This document shows, in pieces, positions 12,795-64,000 of a stretch of 64,000 nucleotides of DNA. Below the pieces are notes generated by a model. The model searched no databases and was not told the origin of the DNA. It saw only the letters and a list, made by a program, of their open reading frames with translations. The position numbers were made by a program, and so were the translations under genes. The stretch's first letter is position 1, and each line of letters starts with the position of its first letter. The DNA comes from Oscillospiraceae bacterium. Its GTDB lineage: Bacteria > Bacillota > Clostridia > UBA1381 > UBA9506. The stretch spans positions 62,001 through 126,000 of the forward strand of contig SVJS01000003.1 in the NCBI GenBank assembly GCA_015068855.1, read 5' to 3'.

Positions 12795-12836
12795 ATAAAA
12801 AAAGAAACATCGTGATTCGATGTTTCTTTTTTTCTT
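12795..12836. terminator. Bidirectional terminator between pfkB-like gene and spoIVA
   Basis: aaaaagaaacatcgtgattcgatgtttctttttt. Confidence 0.8.
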
Positions 12837-14314
12837 TATAAGATAATACAAATGAGACCGCCGGAGCCCTCGTTGATGATTTTTTGCAATGTTTCCTGAA
12901 GCTTGATTTGTGCTTCGTCCGGCATGCGGGATAGCTTGTTATGTAAGCCTTCATTGACGAGCTCGTGGAGGGATTTTCCAAAAATGTCAGATTCCCAGAT
13001 TTTCTTCGGGTCTGCCTCGAATTCCTTCAAAAGATAATGGACAAGCTCTTCGGATTGCTTTTCCGTTCCAACAATAGGGGAAACCTCCGTTTCAATGTTT
13101 GCACAAATCATATGAATGGAGGGCGCAGAGGCCTTTAAGCGAACGCCAAAACGACCGCCCTGTTTCACAATTTCAGGTTCCTCTAAATGGAGTTCGTCAA
13201 TGGTCGGTGTTACGATGCCATAACCCTTTCGCTGCACCTCATGCAGGGCATAGGAAATTTTATCATATTCTTTCTTGATTTTAGACATGTCGGTTAGTAA
13301 GGTCAGCAGCTTATCCTCGCCATCAATGTCAAAGCCGGAGAGCTCTTGGGCGATGCGGTAAAACAGGGTTTCGGGCATGGAGAGGCAAAGCTCGGCATAG
13401 CCCCTGCCCAGGTCAATTTCCTTGATTTGAGCAGAGTGAACATATTCGCAGCAGTCGGGCAGTGCGCTCAGGGTTTTTATGCTCTCAATGGTGTCCAGAC
13501 GGTCCACAACGGAGGCGATCTGGCTATAGAGCTCCTCCTTTAACCAATGGTCAACAGGCAGCACATCCACCCATTTAGGCATAGTAACAGTGATTTCCTG
13601 AATGGGGAATTGATATAAAATGCGGCGCATGATTCCGTTGATTTCATCCTTTGTCATGCTGCCGCAGTTTACAGCCATAACCGGAACGCCATGGTGGTTT
13701 TCCAAATAAGCGCGTAGTTCTTCGGTTTCCGGTTTATCCGGATACATTGTATTCAAAACAATCACAAAGGGCTTGTTGATGGCTTTTAATTCGTTGGCCA
13801 CACGTTCTTCGGCATCCACATAGTCTTCACGGGGAATGTCAGTAATGCTGCCATCGGTTGTGATTAAAAGACCAATGGTGGAATGCTCCGTGATAACCTT
13901 CTTGGTACCGATTTCGGCAGCCTCGCCAAAAGGAATCGGTTCTTTTGCCCATGGAGTTGAGACCATGCGGGGTGCATCGTTTTCCAGATGGCCCTGTGCG
14001 CCCTCCACAATATAGCCCACGCAGTCAATCATTCTGACCTTCATTTTTGACTCTTCATCAAGACAGATTTCAACCGCCTCGTTCGGGATGAACTTTGGCT
14101 CGGTGGTCATGATTGTTTTGCCGGCAGCACTTTGCGGTAATTCGTCCTTGGCTCGTTCCTGGCTGTATGTGTTTTCAATGTTGGGGATGACAAGCAAATC
14201 CATGAAATTCTTGATAAAGGTAGATTTACCTGTCCGGACAGGGCCGACAACGCCAACATAAATATCGCCGCCTGTTCGAGCTGCTATGTCTTTGTATATG
14301 TTATAACTTTCCAT
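12836..14314 (-). CDS. spoIVA: Stage IV sporulation protein A (spore coat morphogenetic ATPase)
   Basis: MESYNIYKDIAARTGGDIYVGVVGPVRTGKSTFIKNFMDLLVIPNI... diagnostic of SpoIVA; 492 aa. Confidence 0.97.
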   Translation of the reverse strand: MESYNIYKDIAARTGGDIYVGVVGPVRTGKSTFIKNFMDLLVIPNIENTYSQERAKDELPQSAAGKTIMTTEPKFIPNEAVEICLDEESKMKVRMIDCVGYIVEGAQGHLENDAPRMVSTPWAKEPIPFGEAAEIGTKKVITEHSTIGLLITTDGSITDIPREDYVDAEERVANELKAINKPFVIVLNTMYPDKPETEELRAYLENHHGVPVMAVNCGSMTKDEINGIMRRILYQFPIQEITVTMPKWVDVLPVDHWLKEELYSQIASVVDRLDTIESIKTLSALPDCCEYVHSAQIKEIDLGRGYAELCLSMPETLFYRIAQELSGFDIDGEDKLLTLLTDMSKIKKEYDKISYALHEVQRKGYGIVTPTIDELHLEEPEIVKQGGRFGVRLKASAPSIHMICANIETEVSPIVGTEKQSEELVHYLLKEFEADPKKIWESDIFGKSLHELVNEGLHNKLSRMPDEAQIKLQETLQKIINEGSGGLICIIL

Positions 14315-14465: not shown

Positions 14466-14728
14466 ACAGACTTTTACTTGGTTTTATCCCTGCGATGTGC
14501 GTGATTAGTGATTTTTATTTTACCAACACTTTTATAAAGGGAATCCGGCTCCATGCGTGGCGTATACGCCCCCCGACTTTGTCGGCCAGGGGACATATAA
14601 AACGTGTGGGAGGTTACCCACCTGCTCAGGCAGGTAAAAATTAATCCTATACACGGCATGGCGGGGCTACAAAAGATAAAGAAGAGCTGTTATCCAACGA
14701 CTTTTGTCTAAGGATAACAGCTCTTTTC
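14466..14728 (+). ncRNA. ssrS: Probable 6S RNA (including terminator)
   Basis: No coding content. Long-range rod: CCCTGCGATGTGCGTG (from 14488) with CACGGCATGGCGGGG (14652-14666); TTTTTATTTTACC with GGTAAAAATTAAT; ACACTTTTATA with TATAAAACGTGT. ACCTGC-tcag-GCAGGT hairpin on the 3' side of the central region. Own promoter and terminator. Confidence 0.68.
14681..14728. terminator. Terminator (bidirectional)
   Basis: gaagagctgttatcc...ggataacagctctttt. Confidence 0.85.
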
Positions 14729-30243: not shown

Positions 30244-30465
30244 ATGGCAGAAAAGAAGACATTTGAAAAAACAATGCAGGAGCTTGAAGAAGTTGTTCTG
30301 GCGTTAGAAGCCGGACAAATTGAATTGGAGCAGGCACTTGTTTTATATGAAAAGGGCATTAAACTCTCTAAGACATGCCAGAAAATCCTGGACCAGGCTG
30401 AGCAAAAAGTTGTTCGCCTGACAGAAAATGAAGATGGGACCATGACAGAGGAGGCCTTTGTCTGA
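30244..30465 (+). CDS. xseB: Exodeoxyribonuclease VII small subunit
   Basis: KTFEKTMQELEEVVLALEAGQIELEQALVLYEKGIKLSKTCQKILDQAEQKV. Confidence 0.94.
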   Translation: MAEKKTFEKTMQELEEVVLALEAGQIELEQALVLYEKGIKLSKTCQKILDQAEQKVVRLTENEDGTMTEEAFV

Positions 30466-30495: not shown

Positions 30496-31374
30496 ATGGA
30501 TTTTTTAACAGAATTTGAAGCCAAAATCAATGTAGCAAATCAGTCCTTACAAAAATATTTTGCCAAGAAGGAAAACCACCAGATGTCAATCTATGACGCC
30601 ATGGAATATAGTTTGTTTTCCGGGGGCAAACGAATCAGACCTGTTTTGTGTGCAGCTTGTGCCGAACTCTTTGGAAATGCCGAAGATGTTATGCCCTTTG
30701 CCTGCGCCATTGAGATGATTCATACCTACTCACTGATTCATGATGATTTACCCTGCATGGACGATGATGATTTGCGTCGCGGTAAGCCCACCAATCACAT
30801 TGTTTATGGCGAAGCCATGGCAGTTTTAGCAGGCGATGGACTTCTGAATTTAGCCTTCGAAACAGTCTTAAATCACTCCAAGGCATCTCCTGCGCTTACC
30901 TTAGAAGCACTCCGCATTATCGGTGAAGCAGCCGGTGCTGAGGGCATGATAGGCGGGCAGGTAATTGATTTGGAATCCGAGGGAAAAGCAATTGATGCCG
31001 TGACCTTGATGGCGATGCATGTACATAAGACGGGTGCTTTGATTATGGCTGCTGCCAAGGTTGGTGCCTTAATCGGTGGCGGAACCAAGGAAGATATTTT
31101 GAACATGGAAAAATTTGCCCGTTATTTGGGTGTTGCTTTCCAGATTAAAGATGATATCTTAGATGTTGAAAGCTCAGTTGAAGTTCTTGGCAAGCCTATC
31201 GGCAGCGACCAATCCAACGAAAAAACAACCATTGTAACGCTGTATGGCCTCGAGCAGTCACGCAAAATGCTCGAAGATTACACAAACAATGCTATTGAAA
31301 CCTTAGAAGAATATGGGGACCGTGCAGCTTTCTTAAAGGAGCTTGCTTTGTTCCTGCTTCGTCGTGACAGATAG
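30496..31374 (+). CDS. ispA: Polyprenyl synthetase (farnesyl/geranyl diphosphate synthase)
   Basis: SLFSGGKRIRPVL, first Asp-rich motif DDLPCMDDDDLRRGKPTNH, second motif QIKDDILD. Confidence 0.95.
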   Translation: MDFLTEFEAKINVANQSLQKYFAKKENHQMSIYDAMEYSLFSGGKRIRPVLCAACAELFGNAEDVMPFACAIEMIHTYSLIHDDLPCMDDDDLRRGKPTNHIVYGEAMAVLAGDGLLNLAFETVLNHSKASPALTLEALRIIGEAAGAEGMIGGQVIDLESEGKAIDAVTLMAMHVHKTGALIMAAAKVGALIGGGTKEDILNMEKFARYLGVAFQIKDDILDVESSVEVLGKPIGSDQSNEKTTIVTLYGLEQSRKMLEDYTNNAIETLEEYGDRAAFLKELALFLLRRDR

Positions 31375-31471
31375 GAAAGAATGACGTTTTATATCTGTTG
31401 AGATGGGGATTTTATGAAGTATCTTGCAGAGCTCTTTCTGACAAAATATTGATAACGGTCCTTTTTTGTGA

Positions 31472-31500
31472 TTTACAAGCGTGTTTAATTGTGTTACAAT
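31472..31500 (+). promoter_or_regulatory. Sigma-A-like promoter of the OLE-like RNA
   Basis: TTTACA (31472-31477), 17-bp spacer, TACAAT (31495-31500); predicted start is 7-9 nt downstream, at the 5' strand of the closing stem. Confidence 0.7.
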
Positions 31501-31508
31501 ATGTAATT

Positions 31509-32136
31509 AGAGTGGTGCAGTATTCTAGTCAGTTCTACTCATTCCCAGGACGGGCCTAAAAATCCGTTGAAGGGCACATCGATGAAGTTCCTGGTGCTTG
31601 CTTTCGACGCCCAGTCGGGGGTTGGTGCTGGGAGTTAAGGCTTAGGGGCGACCTGCAATGGCATGTGGGATCCGACCCCTTTGCCGTGGAGACCTGTTCT
31701 TGTGTTCCAATGTGCGTCCGTGGTTTTACCATGACCGCAACGGGATACGAAGCAGGATTAAACCTGCCAGGCGGTGTGAATTTGCCTTTTGGCAAAGGAA
31801 TGCTGTGGGCAGTGTAGCCTGCCTTGAGTGGCATTGGCGGATAGCGGATCAGATCTAAAATCTTCGGCCAAAGGTTTTGGATTATTGCTGCTTGAAACTT
31901 CTGTTGCAAAAGAGGCTAAGAATGTGTGTGACTGTTTGGGAAATCCTCTAGACTGTTCCTTTTGGAGATACACTGAGGATTGCAGTGCGGAATTAAGTGG
32001 TGATTCGGTTTTGCGATGGGTGACCACGCAGATTGAGCATGAAAGGGAAACCGCTGATTTGGCGACATTTCAGCTGCTCTTTGGGAAAGCCTACCGAACC
32101 TAAACCGTAAAATTAACTCAGTTGTATTACCACTCT
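31509..32136 (+). ncRNA. OLE (ornate large extremophilic) RNA candidate, about 628 nt
   Basis: About 800-nt protein-coding gap between ispA and a multi-TM gene. AGAGTGGT (31509-31516) is perfectly complementary to ACCACTCT (32129-32136). Internal hairpins CCAGGA/TCCTGG (31545-31550/31589-31594), GCAGG-attaaa-CCTGC (31752-31767), TTTGCC-tttt-GGCAAA (31781-31796). xseB-ispA-RNA-OapA-like order and length match the OLE locus. Confidence 0.85.
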
Positions 32137-32178
32137 TTTTATTTAATATCATGTCAAACATACAGTAAGGTGGTTACA

Positions 32179-32790
32179 TTGACAGAAGACAGTAAACAAA
32201 AAAAGAAAATTAAAATTGCAGGTAATCGTGCAACGGGCAGAAAGATAAACTACAAATGGGTTGTTACCATTTTAGTTTGGACTTTTTTTATTTCATCGGG
32301 CATGCAAATGATTCAATCGGGCCTTATGAGTCGGGTGACGCTTGCGCTTGCCTTTTTAATTTTGTTTTCCTTTATTTTAATCGGTATTATTTTTGATATT
32401 GTCGGCGTTTCGGTAACGGCGGCCAGTGAGGTGCCCTTTCATTCTCTGGCATCCCGTCGCGTTCGTGGTGCAAAAGAGGCGGTCTGGCTGATACGTAATG
32501 CAGATAAGGTCGGTAGCTTTTGTAATGATGTTATCGGCGACATTGCGGGCATTATAACGGGTAGTGCCTCGGCCACGATTGTGGGGATGCTTGTTGTGTA
32601 TTTTGAAAACAGCAATTCCTTTTTGCTCACGATTGTTTTGGCCGGTCTTGTAGCCGCAATGACAGTTGGCGGTAAGGCAGCAGGCAAAGGTATTGCCATT
32701 ATGAACTGCAACCGCGTCGTTTTTTTTGTTGGTAAACTCATTAGTTTTTTTATACCAAGCAAAAAGAAAAGAAAGACAAAAGCGAAGTAA
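32179..32790 (+). CDS. OLE-associated protein A (OapA)-like membrane protein
   Basis: TTG start after aaggtgg; 203 aa with about four hydrophobic segments (WVVTILVWTFFISSG, VTLALAFLILFSFILIGIIFDIVGV, FCNDVIGDIAGIITGSASATIVGMLVV, SFLLTIVLAGLVAAMTVGG) and basic N- and C-termini; immediately downstream of the OLE-like RNA. Confidence 0.8.
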   Translation: MTEDSKQKKKIKIAGNRATGRKINYKWVVTILVWTFFISSGMQMIQSGLMSRVTLALAFLILFSFILIGIIFDIVGVSVTAASEVPFHSLASRRVRGAKEAVWLIRNADKVGSFCNDVIGDIAGIITGSASATIVGMLVVYFENSNSFLLTIVLAGLVAAMTVGGKAAGKGIAIMNCNRVVFFVGKLISFFIPSKKKRKTKAK

Positions 32791-32871: not shown

Positions 32872-33759
32872 ATGATTGAGAGAAAAGAAATCGATTTAGC
32901 ATCACAGTCGGTGTTTGGTCAGTATATCCATAACCTTGATAACTCCACCTATAACTTTACCAACATGTATATGTGGGCAGGTGATGGCGACATCACTTAC
33001 GGCGAAACAGACGGCTGTCTGGCTATTTTCTTTCAAGGCAAGCGCCGCCCCCTTTCGGTTTCCTATCCCGTCGGAGACGGGGACAGGAAAAATGCTATTC
33101 TCCATCTTTCAAACTATATTCGTGAGCTTGATTTACGGCCGGTTTTTCGCAATCTTTCCCGAGAGATGGTTGCAGAATTGGAAAGCCTTTATCCCGGCGC
33201 TTTTGAATTTGTTGAGGACAGAGCAGCGGCGGATTACATTTATGAAACGGAAAAAATGATTACACTTTCCGGAAAAAAGTTACATGCTAAGCGCAATCAT
33301 TATAATTTTTTTAAGAATAATTATGCTTATGTATATCGTCAGCTTACGGCGGAGGATATGCCGGATTGCATGGCTCTTTTTGAGCGTTGGCTTGATGAAA
33401 AAGAAAATAAAAAATGGATTGGTACATCCCGTGAAGCAACGGCAAAATTGTTGGGAAGCTTTGCTGCCTTACCGGTTCGCGCAGGCGGTTTATACGTGGA
33501 GGATGAATTGATTGCCTTTTCTGTGGGTGAACCTGTGACAGAGGACACGGTTTTGGTTCATCTTGAATTTGCGGCAGATATCAGGGGCGCGTTTAACGTG
33601 ATAAACAGTGAATTTTGTGCCCATGAATGGCCGGGATATACCTACGTTAACAGAGAAGAGGATATGGGCTTAGATGGTCTTAGGCAAACCAAGCTTGCCT
33701 ATCGTCCTGTCAGATTGTTGGAAAAGTTTAATGCTGTGCAGATAGCACCCTTACAGTAG
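32872..33759 (+). CDS. DUF2156 (phosphatidylglycerol lysyltransferase C-terminal-like) protein
   Basis: FTNMYMWAGDGDITYGETDGCLAIFFQGKRRPLSVSYPVGDGD, KKLHAKRNHYNFFKNNY, YVNREEDMGLDGLRQTKLAYRPVRLLEKF. Confidence 0.85.
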   Translation: MIERKEIDLASQSVFGQYIHNLDNSTYNFTNMYMWAGDGDITYGETDGCLAIFFQGKRRPLSVSYPVGDGDRKNAILHLSNYIRELDLRPVFRNLSREMVAELESLYPGAFEFVEDRAAADYIYETEKMITLSGKKLHAKRNHYNFFKNNYAYVYRQLTAEDMPDCMALFERWLDEKENKKWIGTSREATAKLLGSFAALPVRAGGLYVEDELIAFSVGEPVTEDTVLVHLEFAADIRGAFNVINSEFCAHEWPGYTYVNREEDMGLDGLRQTKLAYRPVRLLEKFNAVQIAPLQ

Positions 33760-48066: not shown

Positions 48067-49818
48067 TTATTTGTTTAGCCAATTACGGAGAACGGCGGAC
48101 ATTTCAGCTCTTGTAACGTTGCCGGTAGGGTTAAAGCTTCCATCGGAATTTCCCTTGAAGATACCGCATGCTACAGCCCAACTTACGGCTTCTTTATGTT
48201 CAGGTGAAATGTGGGCTGTATCAGTAAATGTTTCGATGTTGGCTCTTTTTGACATATCAAGCTTCAAAAAGACACCACAATTATACATTGCCTGTGCAAG
48301 CGCTTCGCGGCTGATGGGATCATCGGGTCTGAATGTCTTATCCTCAGAAGCGGAAAGGATACCGGACTCATTTGCCCATTGAGCGGACTTAAACCACCAT
48401 TCAGCGCCGCTAGCATCAATGAATGTGCCGCCTGATTTTGCTGTCGGATTTCCGGTGAGTCTGTTTAGAAGGGTTACCGCCATCGCTCTGCTTATGTTGG
48501 TGTTTGGTGCAAATTCGTTGCCTGAAACGCCCCTCATTAAGCCGTTTAGATAGGAGTAATACACACTTCCTGCAAACCAGCTTTCTGTATAAACATCATC
48601 AAAAAGCTGGTAATCCCTTGCGATTTCATCCGTATTTTTAGCGTAGATAAAATCAATTTGTTTATTAACGCCGTTCTTGCTGTCTTTTGAAATGATTCTT
48701 TCAAGATAATGACCAATGGGAGAGCCATCCATTCTGCATGGTCTGCTCATGAGTCTATCCTGGCTTTCTATGTCACAACCCTTTATAAAGTAATTTCCGG
48801 CGGTGCCTCTTGCGTTTTCCCCTGCCATAAGAATTTTATAGCCGGTGTTTTCTAAAACAAGTGCATCTCCCTGAGGACTTCTTTTTGAATAAGGGTATGC
48901 AACGGTTTCGGGAGCCTTGCCCGTCCATCCTTCAATACACTTTACGGCCAGGGTATAGTCTCTTTTAACAGCCGAGACAAAATCCTCTGCGGATTCGCCC
49001 TCCATCATACTCATTCCGACACGGTTTTTCTTATCATAAACATGTAAGCCATATGTGTGCGAACAGAGATTGATTTCGCCGCTTTTTTTCATTTCGATAA
49101 GCTCTTCCCATGTACAATAAGGAGCGGCCTCGCCATTTCTCGTTTTCCCGGAATCCAATGCCTCCCAGGTAGCGTCAATCTGCGCACCGATTATATTAAA
49201 ATCGGCTTTCATGTTATATTTTTTTAATAACGGCCAGGCATTCTTATACACACCCCATGAGCCATCATCAATAGATAAAATAACAGCCTTTTGCGGAATC
49301 GTTTTTTTGCCTTCTAGGTGCCGTAACAAATCGTCAGATGTTATGGTCATATAGCCATTATCTCTAAGCCAAATCAGATCCTCTTCAAAAGCCTCGGGAG
49401 ATATGGAATACTCTTCAAATTCAATGCCGTTTTTTATATCCTCGTCGGACACGAAATTGTGGTACATAATGACGCTGACGGCAGAGATTTCCTCCGGTGA
49501 AACAACTGCCTGAAAAGGCTCGGACAGGGTTGCTTTTTGTGCTGTTGTATCAGTTTTTTCGATTTTATAATAATATGTGTTCGGATGGCTTACCATATCA
49601 TCACGATAGGAGCCGTTTTCCGTGCTGCCGATAAAGGTGTAATTTCCGTCTTTTGTAGTGCATCTGAAAATTTTATAAACGCTGTCATCCTCTTCGTCCC
49701 AAAGAAGCATAACCGTATTAGGGTCTTGCCACAACGCCTTTTCGTTTGCAAAAACACTAATGTTAAGCGAAAAGATTAATGTTGATAAAGCGAACAACAA
49801 TGATAAAAACTTTTTCAT
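48067..49818 (-). CDS. Secreted polysaccharide deacetylase with C-terminal SLH domains
   Basis: Signal peptide MKKFLSLLFALSTLIFSLNISVFA; NodB-like VILSIDDGSWGVYKNAWPLLKKYNMKADFN; three SLH repeats (YSYLNGLMRGVSGNEFAPNTNISRAM...). Confidence 0.92.
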   Translation of the reverse strand: MKKFLSLLFALSTLIFSLNISVFANEKALWQDPNTVMLLWDEEDDSVYKIFRCTTKDGNYTFIGSTENGSYRDDMVSHPNTYYYKIEKTDTTAQKATLSEPFQAVVSPEEISAVSVIMYHNFVSDEDIKNGIEFEEYSISPEAFEEDLIWLRDNGYMTITSDDLLRHLEGKKTIPQKAVILSIDDGSWGVYKNAWPLLKKYNMKADFNIIGAQIDATWEALDSGKTRNGEAAPYCTWEELIEMKKSGEINLCSHTYGLHVYDKKNRVGMSMMEGESAEDFVSAVKRDYTLAVKCIEGWTGKAPETVAYPYSKRSPQGDALVLENTGYKILMAGENARGTAGNYFIKGCDIESQDRLMSRPCRMDGSPIGHYLERIISKDSKNGVNKQIDFIYAKNTDEIARDYQLFDDVYTESWFAGSVYYSYLNGLMRGVSGNEFAPNTNISRAMAVTLLNRLTGNPTAKSGGTFIDASGAEWWFKSAQWANESGILSASEDKTFRPDDPISREALAQAMYNCGVFLKLDMSKRANIETFTDTAHISPEHKEAVSWAVACGIFKGNSDGSFNPTGNVTRAEMSAVLRNWLNK

Positions 49819-49901
49819 CCTATTAACCTCCACTAATGTATAGCTTAATTATACAATATGTTTTAACATTTTACAATGATGAAACGAAAAAAATCAGGCT
49901 G

Positions 49902-50616: not shown

Positions 50617-50966
50617 GCAAGTAATCCAGATGGTCGCGGGGGTGTTTGTAACACTCATGAGGAAAGTCCGAGCTTCATAGGGCAGGGTGCCGGGTAACTC
50701 CCGGTGGAGGCGACTCTAAGGAAAGTGCAACAGAAATAGACTGCCGATGGCTTTCATCGGCGATGGTGGAAAGGTGAGGTAAGAGCTCACCAGCGCGGCG
50801 GAGACGTCGTGGCTCTGTAAACCCCATCCGAAGCAACACCGTATTGGCTCGCATAGGCTAAGTCGGCCCGGCGTGCTTATGCTTGGCGGTGGCTTGAACC
50901 GTATAGTAATATGCGGTCTAGATAGATGATCATCGAATACAAAACTCGGCTTACAGGATTGCTTGC
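50617..50966 (+). ncRNA. rnpB: RNase P RNA, bacterial class A
   Basis: GAGGAAAGTCCGAGCTTCATAGGGCAGGGTGCC, CAGAAATAGACTGCCG, GGTAAGAGCTCACCAGC, AAAACTCGGCTTACA; P1 pairing gcaagtaatcc/ggattgcttgc. Confidence 0.96.
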
Positions 50967-50968
50967 AA

Positions 50969-51005
50969 ACATAACATCGCAGCTTTGCGGTGTTATGTTT
51001 TTTAT
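50969..51005 (+). terminator. rnpB terminator
   Basis: aacataacatcgcagctttgcggtgttatgtttttt. Confidence 0.85.
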
Positions 51006-62575: not shown

Positions 62576-62753
62576 AAAATAGCGATTTACTCTTTACCAA
62601 AAGCGAAATATATGGTACAATATTATTATGTATGGTTATATATAAAAAAGAAACATCTTTTTTGTTTGTAACCGACAGAAAACATATGATAACGAAAAAA
62701 CAGGCAGCCTGTGTCATGAGTTGCAACATGAACGAAAGCGCCGGTAAAGAGTG

Positions 62754-64000
62754 ATGAGTATGGAGACAAGTAACCAATATACAATTTTGGAAAGCCTGCA
62801 AAGTCCTCAGGATATTAAAACAATGAGTTTTCAACAGTTAGCTCAGCTTGCAGAGGAAATTCGTTCGTTTTTAATTCAGTCTGTTTCGCGCACGGGGGGA
62901 CACTTAGCGTCCAATCTCGGCGTTGTTGAATTGACCCTTGCGCTGTTTAAGGTTTTGTCACTTCCGGAGGATGGTATTATCTGGGATGTCGGACATCAGT
63001 CCTATGTGCACAAACTGTTAACGGGACGCATGCAGCAGTTTGCAACTCTGCGGCAGTTTGGCGGCATGAGTGGGTTTCCCAAAAGTTGCGAAAGTCCCTA
63101 TGATATTTTTAACACAGGTCATTCCTCCACATCCATTTCTGCGGCTCTGGGCATGACCCGCGGCGCTGAACTCGCCGGAGAAAAGAGCAGGACGGTTGCA
63201 GTTATCGGTGATGGTGCTTTAACAGGCGGCATGGCGTTTGAAGCTTTAGATGATGCCGGGACCTATAAAAAGAATTTCATTGTCATTCTGAACGATAATG
63301 AAATGTCGATTGCTGCTAATGTTGGCGGCATTTCACGTTATTTAACAAGAGTTCGTACACGTCCGCAGTATCACCGCTTCAAGTCAAATTTAGAGCATGC
63401 CTTTGGCATGATTCCTGTGATTGGACAGCCTACGGTTTTACTGCTCAAACGGATTAAGGATTCTGTTCGCAGATTGCTCATGACTTCAACTGTTTTTGAT
63501 GATTTTGGGTTTACATATTTTGGCCCCATTGACGGTCATGATTTGCCGTTTTTGTGTCAGGTTTTAGAACGTGCTAAGGCAATTAACGGCCCGGTTCTTT
63601 TGCATGTTAAAACCAAAAAAGGAAAAGGCTATAAGTTTGCCGAAGATAAGCCAACAGATTTTCACGGTGTCGGCGTGTTTGAAATTGACACGGGAGAGAG
63701 AAATGGCAGCAGCACATCCTATGCCTCCGTTTTTGGCGCAACAATGGCGGAGCTGGGCGGTCAGGATGAGCGCATTTGCGCCGTAACGGCAGCCATGCCT
63801 GACGGAACGGGCCTGGGAACATTTTCAAAGCTGTATCCCAAGCGTTTCTTTGATGTGGGCATAGCTGAGCAACATGCCGTAACCTTTTCGGCCGGTCTTG
63901 CCAAGCGAGGCCTGCGGCCCGTTGTGGCGGTTTATTCTTCTTTCTTGCAGAGGGCGTATGACCAGGTTCTTCATGATGTTTGCATGCAGAATTTACCCGT
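62754..64000 (+). CDS. dxs: 1-deoxy-D-xylulose-5-phosphate synthase, 3'-truncated by the window edge (not in supplied ORF list)
   Basis: SVSRTGGHLASNLGVVELTLALFKVL, DVGHQSYVHKLLTGR, GHSSTSISAALGM, VIGDGALTGGMAFEAL, FFDVGIAEQHAVTFSAGLA. Confidence 0.96.
   Translation, partial: MSMETSNQYTILESLQSPQDIKTMSFQQLAQLAEEIRSFLIQSVSRTGGHLASNLGVVELTLALFKVLSLPEDGIIWDVGHQSYVHKLLTGRMQQFATLRQFGGMSGFPKSCESPYDIFNTGHSSTSISAALGMTRGAELAGEKSRTVAVIGDGALTGGMAFEALDDAGTYKKNFIVILNDNEMSIAANVGGISRYLTRVRTRPQYHRFKSNLEHAFGMIPVIGQPTVLLLKRIKDSVRRLLMTSTVFDDFGFTYFGPIDGHDLPFLCQVLERAKAINGPVLLHVKTKKGKGYKFAEDKPTDFHGVGVFEIDTGERNGSSTSYASVFGATMAELGGQDERICAVTAAMPDGTGLGTFSKLYPKRFFDVGIAEQHAVTFSAGLAKRGLRPVVAVYSSFLQRAYDQVLHDVCMQNLP

Follow-up and report, generated by a model that had tools for sequence, protein, structure and literature searches.

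A predicted OLE ribonucleoprotein locus in a small-genome Oscillospiraceae bacterium and the alternation of OLE-oapA with mpfA in its genus

Among the RNAs conserved in bacteria, OLE is one of the largest for which no biochemical function is known. A survey published in 2024 found it in 2,822 Bacillota assemblies, gut lineages included, and had already described the anticorrelation between OLE and MpfA (PMC11332333). MpfA, which has the domain order CNNM-CBS-CorC_HlyC, resembles the OLE partner OapA, whose membrane domain is predicted to be CNNM-like; it differs from the OLE-OapA system in being made of protein only, in carrying CBS and CorC domains, and in having neither the DxxxD motif of OapA nor an RNA. 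Overlapping work of the two systems is suggested because their distribution is mutually exclusive.

We analysed a 64,000-nucleotide stretch of an Oscillospiraceae genome (contig SVJS01000003.1, here called the window), which almost certainly holds a complete OLE ribonucleoprotein locus. With the OLE ribonucleoprotein of Halalkalibacterium halodurans it shares a full-length RNA of the same family, oapA downstream, xseB-ispA upstream, and OapB, OapC and bS21 encoded in the genome; unlike H. halodurans, the host is an anaerobic gut-type bacterium with a genome of 1.25 Mb, and some loop lengths of the RNA differ, as in an extra hairpin near 31777-31799. The OLE of Clostridium acetobutylicum, described as a dimer by cryo-EM (PMC12286853), has in common with that of the window the GGCC palindrome in the dimer-bridging loop. 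Small-genome gut-type bacteria are also the hosts of the variant 1 and variant 2 OLE RNAs of the TANB77 and RF39 clades (PMC11332333); unlike these variants, the OLE of the window is full length and keeps the P13 loop region, and OapB and OapC are found in its genome. The earlier note on this DNA had presented an OLE beyond the classic extremophiles as new, which does not hold given the gut lineages of the 2024 survey (PMC11332333); a literature search on OLE RNA together with gut and Oscillospiraceae found no paper. Earlier work already covers the OLE class, the partners of the RNA, its occurrence in gut lineages and its anticorrelation with MpfA, so that the OLE of the window belongs to a known class, and the modest addition made here is the exchange of OLE and MpfA within one genus.

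The OLE RNA gene and its terminal helix

On the forward strand, xseB (exonuclease VII small subunit, 30244-30465; PF02609, 68.6 bits) and ispA (farnesyl diphosphate synthase, 30496-31374; NF045485, 348.6 bits) lie directly upstream, as expected of the xseB-ispA neighbourhood that had been proposed. Between the end of ispA at 31374 and the start of the next gene at 32179 there are 804 bp, in which only overlapping chance ORFs of at most 117 aa are found, in line with the earlier description of about 800 bp lacking a credible ORF. The covariance-model check proposed in the earlier note was run with cmscan and bears out its identification of the RNA in this gap as OLE: the Rfam OLE model RF01071 matches 31496-32149 (+) over its complete length (model positions 1-616) with 505.7 bits and an E-value of 2.1e-145, a score about ten times the gathering score of 50 bits. 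The RNA has a predicted fold of -242.4 kcal/mol, much more stable than that of shuffled sequences (z -8.7).

A likely promoter (31472-31500, +), recognised purely by its match to the consensus, consists of TTTACA and TACAAT separated by 17 nucleotides, with TG before the second hexamer. It agrees with the consensus at 10 of 12 positions and ranks first among the 6 sites of the region, where shuffles average 2.7; the OLE transcript would be expected to start just past it, near 31507-31509. Within the RNA, a GGCC palindrome (31866-31869, +) lies in a hairpin that aligns to the model loop uuGGCCaa, corresponding to L9.3, through which the OLE dimer is bridged in the cryo-EM structure (PMC12286853). 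The loops GGUGAC in the P12.2 region (32019-32024, +) and GGCGAC in the P13 region (32061-32066, +) align to conserved positions of RF01071, and both regions are contacted by OapB in H. halodurans (PMC9723947). The RF01071 alignment thus indicates that the dimer loop and the OapB-contact loop regions are kept in the OLE of the window.

The two ends of the RNA are joined by a helix that the structure of the Rfam model leaves unpaired. An exact 8-bp terminal complement had been noticed earlier, and AGAGTGGT is indeed found at 31509-31516 (+) and ACCACTCT, followed by TTTTT, at 32129-32136 (+); shuffling yields an exact complement of this length between the two terminal 40-mers in only 1.1% of cases. 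Covariation was measured on OLE RNAs of relatives and named Bacillota, of which 40 were aligned at both ends and used; the other 4 of the 44 were left out for want of a recognisable 3' partner. In this set 90.6% of the cells of the helix are paired, and 6 of the 8 pairs have changes in both partners. The covariation score of 0.405, compared to a shuffled mean of 0.20, is reached by none of 500 shuffles. When the partner is shifted by 1-3 columns, pairing falls to 31-68%. It should be noted that the 3' side was located by an ACCAC anchor, one mismatch at most being allowed, which partly selects for the inner five pairs; the outer three pairs are free of this selection and bear most of the double changes. 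The terminal complement is therefore a real, covarying helix. It is probably the published P1, since the published numbering of OLE stems begins at P1 and cryo-EM resolves P3-P9.3.

These paired ends bear on whether the region could instead belong to oapA, as a long 5' UTR or as an attenuator, and not be a separate RNA. Such a reading would fit the distance of about 40 nt between the end of OLE and the start of oapA, together with a terminator scan that detected no intrinsic terminator between them, but what is conserved is a delimited RNA whose ends pair, and the congener G009 has a full-length OLE without an adjoining oapA. We consider an oapA leader very unlikely, and retain the reading of a separate OLE RNA.

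OapA and the other partners of OLE

The gene that follows, oapA (32179-32790, +), is a real gene of 203 codons that starts with TTG, five nucleotides after the ribosome-binding site AAGGTGG (32167-32173, +). Its product is a membrane protein for which no Pfam or NCBIfam family was found above cut-off, and a sequence search of the PDB was also empty, so that its identity rests on adjacency to OLE, a motif and a predicted fold. It shares 38-71% identity with the OLE-adjacent proteins of 23 relatives, and a scan of the collection with the OapA alignment retrieved relatives across Bacillota. In all 20 named Bacillota isolates tested, OLE, scoring 497-542 bits, lies directly upstream of the OapA homologue. 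The motif DxxxD distinguishes OapA and is missing from CNNM domains (PMC11332333); all 24 OapA sequences compared have it in the form DVIGD, at residues 117-121 of the protein encoded in the window. By contrast, the N-terminal 190 residues lack it in two of three MpfA proteins of relatives examined, and in the third a single DGSVD lies past the membrane part, the transmembrane part being without DxxxD. The AlphaFold model (pLDDT 77) has MtCorB CNNM chains (7m1t/7m1u) as its top four PDB matches, with probabilities of 0.93-1.00 and weak E-values of 0.03-0.4; for H. halodurans OapA, the published top match is likewise CorB 7M1U (PMC11332333). From these sequence and model comparisons we identify the protein as OapA, as the earlier note had proposed for the multi-TM protein downstream. 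The outcome which that note had set against its own proposal, a protein of a family never tied to OLE, did not arise: the protein's family is the one found after OLE in the named loci. The order OLE then oapA, for its part, holds in the window and in the 20 named loci and fails in G009, where ole and oapA are on different contigs.

Relatives of the host are MAGs labelled Clostridia/Oscillospiraceae. In 41 related genomes, by co-occurrence counts in which genomes related to one another are included, OLE was found in 26, OapA in 25, and the two agree in 40. The sole mismatch is G016, in which OLE lies at a contig end and the downstream side is missing. None of the 15 OLE-negative genomes has OapA. 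This distribution speaks to another explanation, namely that the downstream gene encodes a short MpfA/CNNM transporter and is a chance neighbour of OLE. A weak match to the CNNM profile (16 bits, below cut-off) and the CNNM-like predicted fold would be compatible with it; however, the protein has DxxxD and lacks the CBS pair and CorC_HlyC, whereas the MpfA of a congener has CNNM, CBS and CorC_HlyC. It also adjoins OLE across Bacillota and is missing wherever OLE is missing. The candidate was rejected as MpfA, a chance neighbour being extremely improbable, and OapA is kept as the identity.

All known partners of OLE, namely OapA, OapB, OapC/YbxF and bS21, are encoded in the genome. Pfam KOW across the genome detected two proteins only, one of them in the ribosomal-protein operon region. 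Because neither was OapB, the latter was located by gene order and PDB similarity: it is a 91-aa protein encoded between map and infA (L036:15272-15547) that matches PDB 7k9b, 'OLE-associated protein B', over residues 6-89 with an E-value of 3.8e-9. OapC/YbxF, an L7Ae-type k-turn protein, is an 80-aa protein encoded between rpoC and rpsL (L037:9641-9883) and matches the YbxF structures 4lck/3v7e (E 1e-10). bS21 is encoded in the same genome. Neither OapB nor OapC is specific to OLE: both serve other roles and are also found where OLE is missing.

A decayed, non-functional relic might be suspected in a reduced genome, given its small size and the loss of the locus in relatives. Such decay is nevertheless highly unlikely: the full-length score falls within the range of the named free-living species, oapA, oapB and oapC are intact, the loops are conserved and the terminal helix covaries. 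We thus keep the interpretation of a complete locus.

Downstream of oapA, outside the OLE ribonucleoprotein, lies a gene of the LPG_synthase_C (DUF2156) type (32872-33759, +; PF09924, 166.3 bits). The window also contains dxs (62751-64000), about 30 kb from OLE; in H. halodurans dxs lies near OLE. A spore-forming, Clostridia-like host had been suggested, with which spoIVA (Stage IV sporulation protein A, 12836-14314, -) in the window and Spo0A in the genome agree. 6S RNA and RNase P RNA genes are present at gathering scores at 14484-14671 and 50618-50969, and a polysaccharide deacetylase with S-layer homology domains is encoded at 48067-49833 (-) beside a tRNA and rnpB.

Exchange of OLE-oapA and mpfA within the genus

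MpfA was not found in the source genome, where no CNNM match reaches the cut-off. A full CNNM above cut-off, taken as MpfA, was detected in 15 of 15 OLE-negative genomes compared to 4 of 26 OLE-positive ones (G011, G026, G027 and G030), an anticorrelation with a Fisher p of 6e-8 that is uncorrected for relatedness. One MpfA checked in full has CNNM, CBS and CorC_HlyC.

The loci of the congeners were then compared. In the OLE-positive G001, G004 and G007 the order is ispA-DUF212-OLE-oapA with LPG_synthase_C downstream, an aroE-like gene being inserted between oapA and LPG_synthase_C in G004 and G007. OLE-oapA is missing from the OLE-negative G002 and G006 and from G013 and G017, which are more distant; all four have the order ispA-DUF212-aroE-LPG_synthase_C. 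In G008 LPG_synthase_C directly follows ispA. In the OLE-negative G006 and G008, mpfA is located between a NUDIX gene and glyS (L160, L161, L162), a congeneric MpfA being encoded at L160:2938-4218; this NUDIX-glyS site holds no mpfA in the OLE-positive G001, G004, G007 and G009. The IspA tree places G002, G006 and G008 together in one supported clade nested within the OLE-positive genus, and for the subset of genomes used in it three changes of label are enough. Gene order thus indicates that OLE-oapA was lost in one clade, that the flanking genes were kept, and that mpfA is present elsewhere. These are few events, consistent with functional replacement without being proof of it. Infernal was also run on the loci that OLE has vacated in OLE-negative relatives and detected no remnant of it. 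A possible fossil at the vacant OLE site of G006 (L165:3295-3314), a P6-like stretch of 20 nt (GGGCG...TGCAATGGCATG) identical to the OLE of G004 at 18 of 20 positions (BLAST E 0.05), was too weak to count.

In G009, which is 97% complete, the full-length OLE follows ispA-DUF212 on contig C6 (L006/L159) with no oapA beside it, and the only oapA is on contig C21 (L158), followed by its usual neighbour LPG_synthase_C. This split is most simply explained by a rearrangement that broke the locus between ole and oapA, but it may also be an assembly error.

Proposed working of the OLE particle and its meaning

From work on H. halodurans and by cryo-EM, we propose that an RNA of about 630 nt would start near 31508 from its own promoter, that its two ends would pair, and that two OLE RNAs would dimerise through the GGCC loop. 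OapA would hold the dimer on the cell membrane, OapC, bS21 and OapB would bind and remodel the particle, and the particle would serve adaptation to stress and to divalent metal (Mg2+). The gene distribution further suggests that the OLE particle may do here the job of the all-protein Mg2+ exporter MpfA in relatives without OLE-oapA. Since OLE-oapA is lost as a unit and mpfA is found at another site, the OLE RNA would supply the work of the CBS and CorC domains; that the OLE-OapA particle and the MpfA exporter are interchangeable within one gut Clostridia genus, with the RNA in the CBS/CorC role, is a serious though tentative possibility.

The locus adds a full-length OLE that has all its known partners in a small genome. 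Near relatives in the genus keep either OLE-oapA without MpfA or MpfA without OLE-oapA, a fine-scale natural contrast that makes the published idea of replacement between OLE and MpfA, which rested mainly on broad phylogenetic profiling, easier to test.
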